Of a stretch of DNA of 40,981 nt, positions 24,394 through 40,981 are shown in pieces. The number at the start of each line of letters is the position of its first letter. Position 1 is the stretch's first letter. This DNA is from a virus, in the IMG/VR virus record IMGVR_UViG_3300022871_000040, positions 1 to 40,981 of that record; one strand, written 5' to 3'. The translations under genes were made by a program, and so were the position numbers. The notes under the pieces were generated by a model that did not search any database, was not told the origin of the DNA, and was given only the letters and a program-made list of their open reading frames with translations.

Positions 24394-25209
24394 TTAAGAA
24401 TTAAGCCGTTTGAGTTCTTCGATAACATTTTTCGCAGCGTAGCGACCATTGGAATTTAACATCCGCTGCCATGCTTTGTTGTAGGGAGACCAACGAAAAC
24501 CGCGAGATTTTAATATTGTCCGAATCTCCTCCGCTGGTTTTCCGTCGAAGATGAATCTGATTCTGTTGTCGTCTTTGTTCTCCGTCAGTTTGTAGCCTTC
24601 GCCTTCCACGTCTTCGTTTTCCACAATCTGAGTTTGCTTTTGCAGTTGCTCAATCCGCTTTTTTACGCTCCGAATGTTCGCGCTGTCGCCAAAAAAATAA
24701 TAGGCGCTGATTCTTTCGGGTGGAAAAGCGTAATAAGTCCGTTTGTTTAGCATTTCGGTAAATACTTTTTTGTCGGGGTTGTCGTCTTCCATTGCCTCGA
24801 CTTCTTTTAACGCGTTTTCGAGTGTTTTAAATTTCCTCAATTTGCCGTTGTATTTTTTCATATATTCCGCCGTCTTCTCCAGTCCTTCCAGCTTCTCTTT
24901 TAATTTCCTGACCGCTTCGGGATCGTCCGAGCTAATCCCAGCCTTGCCGACTCCCTCGGCTTTTGCTTCGTAGTGTTCCGCCTTTTCTCTCTCTTGCACG
25001 GATTTACCAATTTTCCCAGTTGCGCGGCTTCTAAAGGCTCTGTCGCCTCGCTCGCTATGATGTCCGACGAGGATCGGCTGCCCGAATGGGATTTGGTCGA
25101 GCGCTTTCCAACCTTCACGTGAAAGCCTGTCTGCTCTCGTGGTGAGTGCCGCCGCGGTCTGCTCGTATCGCTCCTTCCGCGCTTGTTGTTTTTCTTCGTA
25201 GTGGTTCAT
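24394..25209 (-). CDS. DUF3560 family protein
   Basis: The protein has 271 residues. The N-terminal part (about 1-105) matches DUF3560: YEEKQQARKERYEQTA, then ALDQIPFGQPILVGHHSE (38-55), RAFRSRA, and GISSDDPEAVRKLKEKLEGLE. The middle is helical. The end has GRWSPYNKAWQRML-like residues (GFRWSPYNKAWQRML, about 235-250), common in the C-terminal part of this family. The biochemical role of DUF3560 is unknown. It occurs on plasmids, conjugative elements and phages. Here it is the main gene of a five-gene minus operon under the palindrome-bearing promoter. Confidence 0.85.
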   Translation of the reverse strand: MNHYEEKQQARKERYEQTAAALTTRADRLSREGWKALDQIPFGQPILVGHHSERGDRAFRSRATGKIGKSVQEREKAEHYEAKAEGVGKAGISSDDPEAVRKLKEKLEGLEKTAEYMKKYNGKLRKFKTLENALKEVEAMEDDNPDKKVFTEMLNKRTYYAFPPERISAYYFFGDSANIRSVKKRIEQLQKQTQIVENEDVEGEGYKLTENKDDNRIRFIFDGKPAEEIRTILKSRGFRWSPYNKAWQRMLNSNGRYAAKNVIEELKRLNS

Positions 25210-30479: not shown

Positions 30480-30539
30480 TACTTAAACCAAGTAAAAAGC
30501 GAATCGAAGAAATTAAAAAATCAATCTAACCCCTTTATT

Positions 30540-30983
30540 ATGATTACAAAAACCTTCAAAGTCGGAGATCAAGTAAGAATAAACTGGGAAAAGTCGAATT
30601 ATGAATATTCTGAAAATTATAAATATACCGGGACAGTATTTAATATTTATAATGAAGACTATTATGAAGTCAAAGGGTTTCTTCGTGATGATCCAGAATA
30701 TAGCTTAAGTTTTACATCAAAATACCTAGAACTTATTAAACCATCTAACTCCAAAACTACGAAATCGAAAAGCTCAAAACCCACAATCGAAGTAATCCAA
30801 GACAAGGTAATTAAATTTTCAGACAGTGCAACAAAGTATTATAAGGATGAAATTGAATTAGCGTTTTCTGTAGTAAAAAATCCTCAAGCAATAACTAGAT
30901 GTAAGCTTACTCCTATGCAAGCTCTCGGACTAGCCAAGAAAATCCGTCGAGAAGTAGCACGTCATAAAAAACTCAAATTCTAA
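30540..30983 (+). CDS. SH3/KOW-like small protein
   Basis: The protein has 147 residues. Residues 3-65 look like a small beta-barrel (FKVGDQVRINW, then GTVFNIYNEDYYEVKG, SKYLELIKP). A basic linker rich in Ser/Lys follows, then a helix with LTPMQALGLAKKIRREVARHKK. The leader is TCTAACCCCTTTATT, the best-matching C-rich leader of the early region. Function unknown; RNA or protein binding is possible. Confidence 0.65.
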   Translation: MITKTFKVGDQVRINWEKSNYEYSENYKYTGTVFNIYNEDYYEVKGFLRDDPEYSLSFTSKYLELIKPSNSKTTKSKSSKPTIEVIQDKVIKFSDSATKYYKDEIELAFSVVKNPQAITRCKLTPMQALGLAKKIRREVARHKKLKF

Positions 30984-35460: not shown

Positions 35461-35861
35461 ATGATAAAATATCTGATTTACAGGTTGGAATTGCGGGAGA
35501 ACACTTAGTTTGTGCTGACTTAATTACAATGGGTCATAGAGCATTTTTATCAGACCAGGGATTACCATATGATATTGTCGCAGAAATAGACGACAAGCTA
35601 TACAGAATACAGGTGAAGACAACAAGTAAATTTAGAGCTATACCACAAAGAAAAAAATACACTCCTGCATATTTATTTTGGATTAAAAGATGTGGTAAGG
35701 GTGGGAAAAAAACGTATACAGAAAAAGATTTTGACTTCATGGCGTTGGTAGCATTGGACAAAAAAATTGTTGGTTATATTGAAAGAGACCAAGCTAAATC
35801 AACCATGCACATTAACGAACAAAAATTAAAAGCATTAACGTTTGAAAAATTATGGAAATAA
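35457..35861 (+). CDS. PD-(D/E)XK endonuclease (homing-type or restriction-like)
   Basis: The protein has 134 residues. GIAGEHLVCADLI (E15), PYDIVAEID (D39) and YRIQVKTT (Q52, K54) give the E...D...QxK core of small PD-(D/E)XK nucleases of the PDDEXK_5 / Holliday-junction-resolvase-like group, which includes group I intron homing enzymes. It sits directly after a methyltransferase fragment cut at its catalytic motif and overlaps the intact methyltransferase by 10 bases. It could be a free-standing homing nuclease, or the restriction half of a restriction-modification pair. Confidence 0.7.
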   Translation: MNDKISDLQVGIAGEHLVCADLITMGHRAFLSDQGLPYDIVAEIDDKLYRIQVKTTSKFRAIPQRKKYTPAYLFWIKRCGKGGKKTYTEKDFDFMALVALDKKIVGYIERDQAKSTMHINEQKLKALTFEKLWK

Positions 35862-37054
35862 ACAAGATTTACCACGGAGATTGTTTGGAAGTGATGAGAA
35901 CTTTTCCAGATAACTGCATTGATGCATTGTGTTGCGATCCACCTTACGGAATTTCGTTTATGGGAAAGAAGTGGGATTACGATGTGCCGAAAGTTGAGTT
36001 GTGGCAAGAAGTTTTGAGGGTTTTAAAGCCGGGTGGACACGCTCTTGTTGCTTGCGGAACTCGAACACAACATCGAATGGCAGTCAATTTGGAAGATGCT
36101 GGATTTGAGATAAGAGATATAGTGGCTTGGATATATGGGAGTGGATTCCCGAAAAGTTTGAATATCGGAAAGGCGGTTGATAAGTTACAAGGGAATGAGA
36201 GAGAGGACTTAGGAATAAGCGATGCCACAAGACCAAATCACCAAAAAGGGAATGCTGGAATGCAAAGGTTACTAAATAACAACAACCCTCATTCTGAAAT
36301 AAGACTAACCAAAGGCTCATCTCCTTACGAAGGCTGGGGAACAGCTCTAAAACCAGCTATGGAATTATGGACTCTCTGCCGCAAACCTCTCGAAGAAAAA
36401 ACGGTGGCTCAGAATGTTTTGAAATATGGAACAGGTGGGATAAATATTGATGGGTGTCGGGTAGAGGGAACTGATGAAATACCAACATTTACACGAGATT
36501 TAACAAATGCTCATGGAAATAATTTTGGTGCTGGAACAAAAATACCAACTAAATCAAATGGAGTAACTGGACAAGGCAGATTCCCAGCAAACCTAATCCA
36601 CGACGGAAGTGATGAAGTGGTAGAGGGGTTTCCAGAAAACACACAAAGATTTTTTTACACAGCCAAGGCTTCAAAGAGCGAAAGGAATAAAGGATTGGAG
36701 GGGTTTGAGGAGAAGGAGAAATATAAACTTGATAACTCTGGTAATTCGCACGAAATACATTCTAAAAACAACAAGCGAGTTAACCCTAAAACTGGAGTAT
36801 TGGAAGAAAGAAAACCAACTGACGGAAAGAGCAAAAATTCTCACCCAACGGTAAAACCAGTAGCTCTAATGCGATACCTCTGCCGACTCATCACTCCAAA
36901 AGGTGGAACAATTCTCGACCCATTTGTCGGAAGTGGTACGACTGGAATCGGGGCGAAGTTAGAGGGATTTGATTTTATCGGAATTGAAAGAGAGGAAGAA
37001 TATTGTAAAATTGCAGAGGCGAGAATCAATGCACTAGAACCAAGACTTTTATAA
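35852..37054 (+). CDS. DNA N4/N6 methyltransferase (DPPY first)
   Basis: The protein has 400 residues. Motif IV DPPYGI is at 29-34 and motif I is DPFVGSGTTG (from D356). The order DPPY, variable target-recognition region, then FxGxG is that of beta-class adenine-N6 or cytosine-N4 enzymes. The variable region (about 110-330) is long and includes GTGGINIDGCRV, HPTVKPVALMRYLCRL and other family-typical blocks. It would protect phage DNA. All catalytic residues are present. It is translated from inside the nuclease gene. Confidence 0.9.
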   Translation: MEINKIYHGDCLEVMRTFPDNCIDALCCDPPYGISFMGKKWDYDVPKVELWQEVLRVLKPGGHALVACGTRTQHRMAVNLEDAGFEIRDIVAWIYGSGFPKSLNIGKAVDKLQGNEREDLGISDATRPNHQKGNAGMQRLLNNNNPHSEIRLTKGSSPYEGWGTALKPAMELWTLCRKPLEEKTVAQNVLKYGTGGINIDGCRVEGTDEIPTFTRDLTNAHGNNFGAGTKIPTKSNGVTGQGRFPANLIHDGSDEVVEGFPENTQRFFYTAKASKSERNKGLEGFEEKEKYKLDNSGNSHEIHSKNNKRVNPKTGVLEERKPTDGKSKNSHPTVKPVALMRYLCRLITPKGGTILDPFVGSGTTGIGAKLEGFDFIGIEREEEYCKIAEARINALEPRLL

Positions 37055-37062
37055 TTCTATTT

Positions 37063-37108
37063 TATGCCCCACACAATAGAAGAAAGACCAGCTAGAATAA
37101 ATCATTAA
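37063..37108 (+). repeat. Copy 1 of a repeated 14-codon ORF segment (MPHTIEERP)
   Basis: The segment encodes MPHTIEERPARINH and a stop (37064-37108). The copy at 37436-37480 differs at only a few bases and encodes [14 protein letters not shown]. Each lies a few bases before the next gene's start. It may be a leader peptide, a leftover gene start, or a recombination seam. Confidence 0.6.
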
Positions 37109-37119
37109 ACCCATTTATT

Positions 37120-37434: not shown

Positions 37435-37480
37435 TATGCCCCACACAATAGAAGAAAGACCGCCTAGAATAAAATATTAA
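37435..37480 (+). repeat. Copy 2 of the repeated 14-codon ORF segment
   Basis: It matches copy 1 at 37063 over the first 27 bases exactly, with small changes later (Ala to Pro, Asn-His to Lys-Tyr). It ends 4 bases before the start of the second methyltransferase at 37485. Confidence 0.6.
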
Positions 37481-37484
37481 AAAA

Positions 37485-38297
37485 ATGAAAACACTAGATG
37501 AAATCACGAATTGGAAAGACATGATTGGTAATGTTATGAATACTGATTGCTTGGAGGCGATGAAGTTGATCCCAGACAATTCGATTGATTTAGTTCTGAC
37601 TTCTCCACCTTATGATAATTTGAGAGATTACGAGGGATATTCTTTTAATTTTAAAGAAACTGCTAAACAAATTGAACGAGTATTAAAACATGGAGGTGTG
37701 TGTGTTTGGGTTGTTGGAGACGCTGTTGTAAATAATTCAGAAAGTGGAACAAGTTTTAAGCAAGCACTTTATTTTAAAGAAATTGGATTAAATTTACACG
37801 ACACAATGATTTATGAAAAAAATGGTTCACCATACCCAGAAAAAAATAGATATTATCAATGTTTTGAGTATATGTTTGTTTTTTCAAAAGGAAAACCAAA
37901 AACAGTTAATCTAATATCAGATAGGAAAAATAAATGGTCTGGGAGTTGGGGGAACAGAAGCGTAAGAAATAAAGCAGGAGAATTAAAAGCAGGAGAAAAA
38001 ATCGAGTGTAATGAATTTGGAGTTAGATTTAATATTTGGAGAATAAATAATGGTTTTGGTTTTAGCTCAAAAGATAAAATTTCACATCAACATCCAGCAA
38101 TATTCCCAGATAAACTAGCGCAGGACCACATCAAAAGCTGGAGTAACGAAAGAGACTTAATTCTCGACCCATTTCTCGGAAGCGGAACTACCGCCAGAGC
38201 TTGCAAAGATTTAAGCAGGCGTTTTATCGGAGTTGAAATTTCAGAAAAATACTGCGAGATAGCAGAAGAAAGATTATCTCAAGAAGTTTTATTTTAA
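37485..38297 (+). CDS. Second DNA methyltransferase (SPPY-type)
   Basis: The protein has 270 residues. Motif IV is [10 protein letters not shown] (40-49) and motif I is [11 protein letters not shown] (from D228). SPPY is commonest in cytosine-N4 enzymes but also occurs in adenine-N6 enzymes. It is shorter than the 35852 enzyme and not closely similar except at the motifs. It is A/T-rich compared with the structural genes. Two different enzymes suggest two modified sites. Confidence 0.88.
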
Positions 38298-39917: not shown

Positions 39918-39936
39918 TTCATTAACCCCTTTATTT

Positions 39937-40254
39937 ATGTCTGACGACACAACAGCTACTCCAGCTGCGACAGGAGAACCAAAAAAACAAGTCGACCCTT
40001 CAGAACTCCAACCGCAGGACGCAATCTCGGAAAAAATCTTTGAACTCAGAGATGAAATCAAAGTATCAGCAGACAGCACAAAAGTGTTCGCTGATAAATT
40101 AAAAGACGGTACTTATCTTGTTGGTCAAGATTCAGACAACGGAGAGATGATCGCCAACTCAATTCTTGCTTTCCGCCACCTCGAAGATGCAGCAATGCGA
40201 CTCGGGAAAGTCATGCAAGCAAAAAATGGTGGAGTTTCTATTCTGTCGAAATAA
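39937..40254 (+). CDS. Possible cyclic-nucleotide sponge relative (Acb2/Tad1-like), tentative
   Basis: The protein has 105 residues. A Thr/Ala/Pro-rich start leads to two helices: about 27-50 (DAISEKIFELRDEIKVSADS) and about 70-100 (SILAFRHLEDAAMRLGKVMQ, then AKNGGVSI). The FRHLEDAxMRLGK helix with a GGVS turn is a recurring phage pattern that I associate, without certainty, with Acb2/Tad1-type anti-defence proteins. Those bind cyclic-nucleotide signals of CBASS and Thoeris. Leader TTAACCCCTTTATTT is a clear C-rich site. Confidence 0.5.
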   Translation: MSDDTTATPAATGEPKKQVDPSELQPQDAISEKIFELRDEIKVSADSTKVFADKLKDGTYLVGQDSDNGEMIANSILAFRHLEDAAMRLGKVMQAKNGGVSILSK

Positions 40255-40342
40255 TCACTTTCGGGACTAGCCGAAAGTGATAAAAAGTGTCCAAATCGTG
40301 GGCAAGGGGTGAGTGAGCTACAAACTCGCAAGCCCCACCCAC
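40254..40342 (+). promoter_or_regulatory. Structured leader with two strong hairpins
   Basis: ATCACTTTCGG (40254-40264), loop GACTAG and CCGAAAGTGAT (40271-40281) form a perfect 11-bp stem that begins on the last base of the previous stop codon. A second structure pairs GTGGG (40298-40302) with CCCAC (40338-40342) and GGGG with CCCC inside it. Neither has the T-tract of a normal terminator. It could be an RNA-processing element, attenuator or small RNA. Confidence 0.5.
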
Positions 40343-40760: not shown

Positions 40761-40948
40761 ATAAACCAATTAAGATTCCCGAATGGAAGAAAAACTTTAG
40801 AGAGCTAACAAAGCGTTCTCAATATATTGAGTACTCGAGGATTGAAGAATTTATCGGAAAAGAGATTGAGAAGGCAAAGGTTAAAGGTAGGAATGATGTC
40901 TGGTGTGTTAAGCTGTGGATGAAATTAAAAAAGTTTTTTAAGACTTGA
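40757..40948 (+). CDS. Small basic protein before terS (full copy)
   Basis: The protein has 63 residues (MNKPIKIPEWKKNFRELTKR). Its 3' part is repeated at 1-129. It is the last gene before terS in the circle and may take part in the packaging operon, but no family is recognised. Confidence 0.65.
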   Translation: MNKPIKIPEWKKNFRELTKRSQYIEYSRIEEFIGKEIEKAKVKGRNDVWCVKLWMKLKKFFKT

Positions 40949-40981
40949 TTTCCTAATTGCATCGGTTATAATAAAAGCATG
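40820..40981. repeat. Right copy of 162-bp terminal redundancy
   Basis: It matches 1-162 at 160 of 162 positions and ends exactly on the terS ATG. C40834 and C40855 replace T15 and T36, both synonymous. Confidence 0.95.

Follow-up and report, generated by a model that had tools for sequence, protein, structure and literature searches.

The window, as we call the whole stretch of DNA analyzed (40,981 nucleotides, IMG/VR virus record IMGVR_UViG_3300022871_000040), carries a near-identical direct repeat of about 162 bp at its ends (positions 1-162 and 40820-40981). Contigs L003 and L004 cross the join, so the record spans an entire genome, either circular or permuted. After the small terminase gene (160-603, PF20901) comes the large terminase gene (542-1735), whose product is nearest to those of Flavobacterium phages (41.7% identity), weakly hinting at a host among the Bacteroidota. 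The gene examined here, at positions 39937-40254 on the plus strand, comes after two DNA methyltransferase genes and some small ORFs, and joining the ends places it about 0.7 kb upstream of the small terminase gene; the early accessory block in which the original prediction placed it is thus roughly right. The ORF starts with ATG and encodes 105 amino acids that contain an exact FRHLEDAAMRLGKVMQAKNGGVS. Its parts are as follows.

39922-39936, plus strand: upstream element TTAACCCCTTTATTT, abutting the ATG; common to the homologue on contig L005, with a similar form at the L005 Tad2-like gene
39937-40254, plus strand: gene of the HLEDA-family protein, 105 amino acids, distantly related to the Acb2/Tad1 hairpin domain
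39937-39981, plus strand: N-terminal leader MSDDTTATPAATGEP, resembling how the L005 homologue and the L005 Tad2-like protein begin
40012-40104, plus strand: predicted helix 1 (residues 26-56), holding the invariant R38, the aligned counterpart of K23 in T4 Vs.4
40138-40224, plus strand: predicted helix 2 (residues 68-96), holding LAFRHLEDAAMRLGKVMQ
40225-40251, plus strand: C-terminal tail NGGVSILSK, which reads DGGVSxYDK in most relatives

The ORF is real and under purifying selection relative to its 120-amino acid relative in L005, with dN 0.23 and dS 1.28 (dN/dS about 0.18) over the gene and dN 0.014 over the last 32 codons. Searches with the window protein found no family in Pfam (E <= 1) or in PADLOC (E <= 10), and neither PHROG nor the PDB sequences offered a useful match. 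Matches to flagellin (E = 0.0066) and to the scaffolding protein family phrog_233 (E = 0.085) were weak and received no backing from the family searches, and both were rejected.

The original prediction had tied a helix pattern in this ORF, tentatively, to small phage proteins that soak up cyclic nucleotides. We refer to the bearers of the pattern as the HLEDA family, a label of our own; the libraries searched contain no dedicated model. The family core reads LR..IK...E..AN..LAYRHLEDAxMRLGKxIQAxDGGVSxYDK. A protein search of viral contigs returned three identical copies and the L005 relative and nothing else, while the back-translated DNA pattern for HLEDAxMRLGK was found in 107 viral stretches and in 6 stretches of bacterial genome assemblies. 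From 111 loci, which include some second copies of the same contigs, 105 ORFs were recovered, corresponding to 81 distinct proteins. Alignment of 43 representatives (alignment A3) revealed an invariant R38 (43/43) and near-invariant E70, N74, L77, R80, Q94, A95, G99 and S101, all of them outside the 11-residue motif used for collection. A second pattern, taken from the C-terminal tail downstream, yielded 50 stretches, recovered the same family and extended it with variants, ALEDA, PLEDA and DLESA among them. An HMM of the family trained without the window and L005 proteins detected both among 11,981 ORFs (E = 1.2e-22 and 2.6e-20, respectively). The helix pattern is therefore real and the HLEDA motif is more than chance, with conservation extending beyond the search motif and a second motif finding the same family. 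Three family queries against 50,697 phage records gave no matches, and a literature search, to which subscription papers were mostly closed, found no description of the family.

Acb2 and Tad1 are proteins that capture alarm nucleotides produced by infected bacteria. The relationship of the family to their hairpin domain, PF24729 (Acb2_Tad1_hairpin), was analyzed with Pfam and with profile comparisons. PF24729 was matched at E <= 1 by 32 of the 43 representatives (best E = 1.1e-5). The window protein was not among them and did not reach the curated Pfam score, and the window record gave no PF24729 match at E <= 0.1. In a first set of 50 records, made up of T4 and 49 viral contigs (the window among them), a match at E <= 0.1 was present in 35 and one above the curated cut-off in 9; these 9 were T4, G039 and G041 (Hyperion and Squash, whose PF24729 proteins are canonical yet motif-bearing), second genes in G004, G005 and G008, and HLEDA genes in G011, G032 and G044. 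These three HLEDA genes lie in L014, L052 and L079, and most others fell below the cut-off. A further 50 records contained a match in 44 and a match above the cut-off in 3, all second genes. By comparison, 42 control records fetched with two unrelated patterns gave a single match at E <= 0.1 and none above the cut-off. The search covered all but 9 of the 107 motif-bearing records (window apart), the exceptions being L002, L095-L098, L105, L107, L109 and L110.

Microbacterium phage Hyperion carries HLEDALMRFGK inside a PF24729 protein (47.7 bits), and circularity was limited by comparing the family without L106 (42 sequences) with 12 canonical proteins from which Hyperion and the proteins fetched with it had been removed. 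This comparison, performed with hhalign, gave a score of 30.0 (P = 8.4e-5); the reversed set scored 6.6, and 50 column shuffles reached a maximum of 18.2. With Hyperion alone left out (18 canonical proteins) the score was 46.1 (P = 2.1e-7; reversed, 15.3). The window and L005 proteins taken alone gave weak comparisons with the canonical sets (P = 0.0082 and P = 0.00038). Run against 11,721 ORFs, the HMM from the 12-protein canonical set returned 33 matches at E <= 0.1. Of these, 27 carried the motif and four were canonical second genes, among them three that belonged to its training set. At E <= 1 it returned 70 matches, 62 of them motif-bearing; both motif-bearing counts include Hyperion and Squash. 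In the opposite direction, the only motif-less matches of the family HMM outside the family at E <= 1 were the canonical proteins of the Microbacterium phages LilyLou (0.013) and Theresita (0.05). Weak relatives in Curtobacterium phages carry the annotation 'cyclic nucleotide sequestering protein', and the family profile matched only syntaxin and other helical bundles when compared with the PDB. These profile comparisons indicate a remote homology between the HLEDA family and the Acb2/Tad1 hairpin domain. The window protein itself scored poorly against the canonical HMMs (E = 14 with 12 proteins, 0.82 with 18), so its own link to Acb2/Tad1 is transitive, through its family.

Structure prediction for the window protein produced a two-helix hairpin (residues 26-56 and 68-96; mean pLDDT 87.7), a small protein with two long antiparallel helices as in Acb2. 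The family member from L079 was modeled with helices at residues 2-24 and 31-58 (pLDDT 87.1). Tad1 carries an N-terminal antiparallel beta sheet and is described as having a pocket that includes the C-terminal tail (PMC12043709); the sheet is absent from the window model, which consists of helices only. Foldseek returned no match at E <= 0.001, and its top PDB match was a chain of the Rip1-small terminase complex (E = 2.3, not significant). In a separate fold search, the structure of T4 Vs.4 with cGAMP (7uq2) ranked 48 for the window model (Z 7.4, rmsd 3.5, 68 residues aligned) and 46 for a relative (Z 6.8, rmsd 3.5, 65 aligned), in both cases level with unrelated hairpins.

T4 Vs.4, an Acb2, is described as a hexamer with three bound cGAMP molecules, in which Y8 and F82 stack on the ligand, H11, K23 and R79 make contacts, and L29, A66, A73 and A77 are interface residues (PMC10097602). 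The helix-2 segment A..xLEEAxMWxxxAI of Vs.4 corresponds to A..HLEDAxMRLGKxI in the family, and the resulting register pairs Vs.4 with the window protein as A66 to A78, A73 to A85, A77 to L89, R79 to K91 and F82 to Q94; W76 is likewise replaced by R. The hhalign alignment pairs K23 with R38. By alignment and register, then, the basic contacts K23 and R79 are kept as R38 and K91, and the interface alanines A66 and A73 also have family counterparts. Among 93 distinct cores (Hyperion and Squash included), A was present at position 78 in 78 and at position 85 in 92, K at position 91 in 93/93 and Q at position 94 in 90/93; K91 and A85 lie within the collection motif, so their conservation is partly by selection. 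The aromatic clamp formed by Y8 and F82 has no conserved family counterpart: the F82 position is mostly Q, and neither a conserved upstream Y nor a family-wide equivalent of Y8 or H11 was found. Around the place of Y8, the sequence is YQPQD in L005 and LQPQD in the window; this may reflect a remnant or chance. The family has instead a conserved C-terminal tail, GGVSxYDK in most members, although the window protein ends in GGVSILSK and lacks the YD. This pattern suggests that the oligomer was retained and the pocket rebuilt. Given that the family does not keep the stacking residues of Vs.4 but conserves the GGVSxYD tail in most members, it probably binds another ligand than the 3'3'-cGAMP of Acb2, or binds its ligand in another geometry.

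Family genes were in some cases located beside other sponge-type genes. A second PF24729 gene overlapped the family gene or lay within 2 kb of it in 6/98 motif records, with an overlap of 4 nt in L006 and L100, a distance of about 1 kb in L010 and L085 and a distance of about 1.9 kb in L007 and L090. None of the 42 control records (0/42) had any match above the cut-off; as a comparison of raw small counts, the difference is suggestive, not decisive. A raw count gave Tad2-like genes at E <= 0.01 in 3/99 motif records, two of them above the cut-off. In L005 the homologue, the closest relative of the window protein, is followed directly by the Tad2-like gene (E = 4.7e-23), in L091 the distance is about 4.5 kb, and in L099 the match is weak and distant. 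The window record contained no match to PF11195 (Tad2). The first approximately 60 nt of the L005 family gene and Tad2-like gene are alike (score 63), compared with a maximum of 23 among 101 other ATG ORF starts, and the shared sequence includes the leader that is also present on the window protein. At L005:5969-6430 the two genes are alike in the upstream element and about the first 15 codons, while the proteins are otherwise unrelated; from its sequence this segment resembles a 5' cassette that was duplicated. A scan for the leader returned 21 stretches; as a gene start with the upstream element before it, the leader was present only in the kin of the window and in L005. A similar element, TAACCCCTTTATTATG (window 30528-30543), precedes another ORF (30540, MITKTFKVGDQ...), so the element may serve this phage more generally as a start or promoter signal.

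The protein was not filed as Acb2, Tad1 or Tad2 because defining features that were tested were absent. The family departs from Acb2 in the pocket residues and tail described above, and the window protein lies under the Pfam cut-off. Tad1 shares the name of the Pfam hairpin domain that the family matches (PF24729), and the window model differs from it in the missing beta sheet. Tad2 has an unlike fold and sequence, even though it adjoins the family gene in L005 and has the same 5' leader there. Among the closest known systems are also the Hyperion-type proteins: with HLEDALMRFGKAIF, Hyperion combines the family motif and a canonical hairpin protein; these and the Curtobacterium phage proteins differ from the family in keeping the canonical F after AI and in lacking the GGVSxYD tail. 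The predicted connection with cyclic nucleotide sponges was thus a correct lead for the family, through its remote homology to the Acb2/Tad1 hairpin and the presence of some of its genes beside canonical or Tad2-like genes. The support is partial: the window protein is below Pfam detection, Y8 and F82 of Vs.4 have no conserved counterpart and the fold search was unspecific.

We consider it probable that the window protein is a divergent nucleotide-signal sponge of the HLEDA family, sharing its descent with the Acb2/Tad1 helical hairpin and having this putative function. The HLEDA protein, Acb2 and Tad1 would all derive from one helical-hairpin domain, and the HLEDA protein would oligomerize through the conserved helix-2 alanines. 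The oligomer would sequester a nucleotide immune signal, either a cyclic oligonucleotide of CBASS or a cyclic ADP-ribose of Thoeris, and thereby keep the host effector from being triggered. A resemblance to PF24729 arising by chance between short helices with a common LExAxM would account for a match that rests mainly on one helix, for the lack of a score for the window protein itself and for unspecific fold matches. We regard it as very improbable, since the profile comparison exceeded its reversed and shuffled controls, three family genes scored above the curated cut-off, the canonical HMM picked mainly family ORFs among 11,721, and Hyperion bridges both groups.

It is also unlikely, if less so, that the protein is a relative of the hairpin domain that lost signal binding or never had it and acts in phage assembly or packaging. 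Such a role is favored by the position of the window gene near terminase genes, by terminase, portal or head-tail adaptor genes beside family genes in L005, L030, L037, L084 and L099, and by Sinorhizobium phage Aussie, in which a canonical-type protein, a close relative of the canonical hairpin protein of L010, is encoded between head-tail adaptor and stopper genes (L180:2456-2692). However, the large neighbors at ten hand-picked loci comprised two terminase large subunits, two head-tail adaptors, one portal, one ParB-like protein, one helicase and three unmatched proteins; the last three kinds argue that the setting of the family gene is not fixed, and fixed synteny with a structural module was not found among these ten loci. 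The family genes that overlap or adjoin other sponge-type genes also speak against assembly. Two-helix hairpins are common protein-binding modules, and a small helical blocker whose target is a protein of the host or phage, such as a defense protein, instead of a nucleotide would fit this commonness and the Rip1-small terminase match noted above, itself not significant. We give this explanation a low probability, because the studied members of the homologous domain bind nucleotides and because the conserved basic residues R38 and K91 occupy positions that contact the ligand in Vs.4.

If the sponge reading is true, viral signal sponges extend into uncultured phages, with the motif in 107 viral-contig stretches and no match to three family queries in 50,697 phage records, and a pocket unlike that of Acb2 would offer a direct probe of the immune nucleotides used by the hosts of these phages. 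A broader version of the sponge reading is doubtful but worth stating: HLEDA proteins may form a sponge family, widespread in uncultured phages, whose pocket was rebuilt from that of Acb2/Tad1, with loss of the aromatic clamp and gain of GGVSxYD, for a different and possibly undescribed immune nucleotide, and which travels as an exchangeable cassette beside Tad2 or canonical hairpin sponges.

Additional elements were observed in the window. An inverted repeat, ATCACTTTCGG ... CCGAAAGTGAT (40253-40281), lies directly 3' of the stop codon of the family gene and is not followed by a T run. The two DNA methyltransferase genes (35852-37054 and 37485-38297) both match phrog_67, and a 47-bp repeat (37063-37109 and 37435-37481; 91% alike) is located between them, at their edges. 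A DUF3560 protein is encoded on the minus strand at 24394-25209 (PF12083, E = 1.2e-33).
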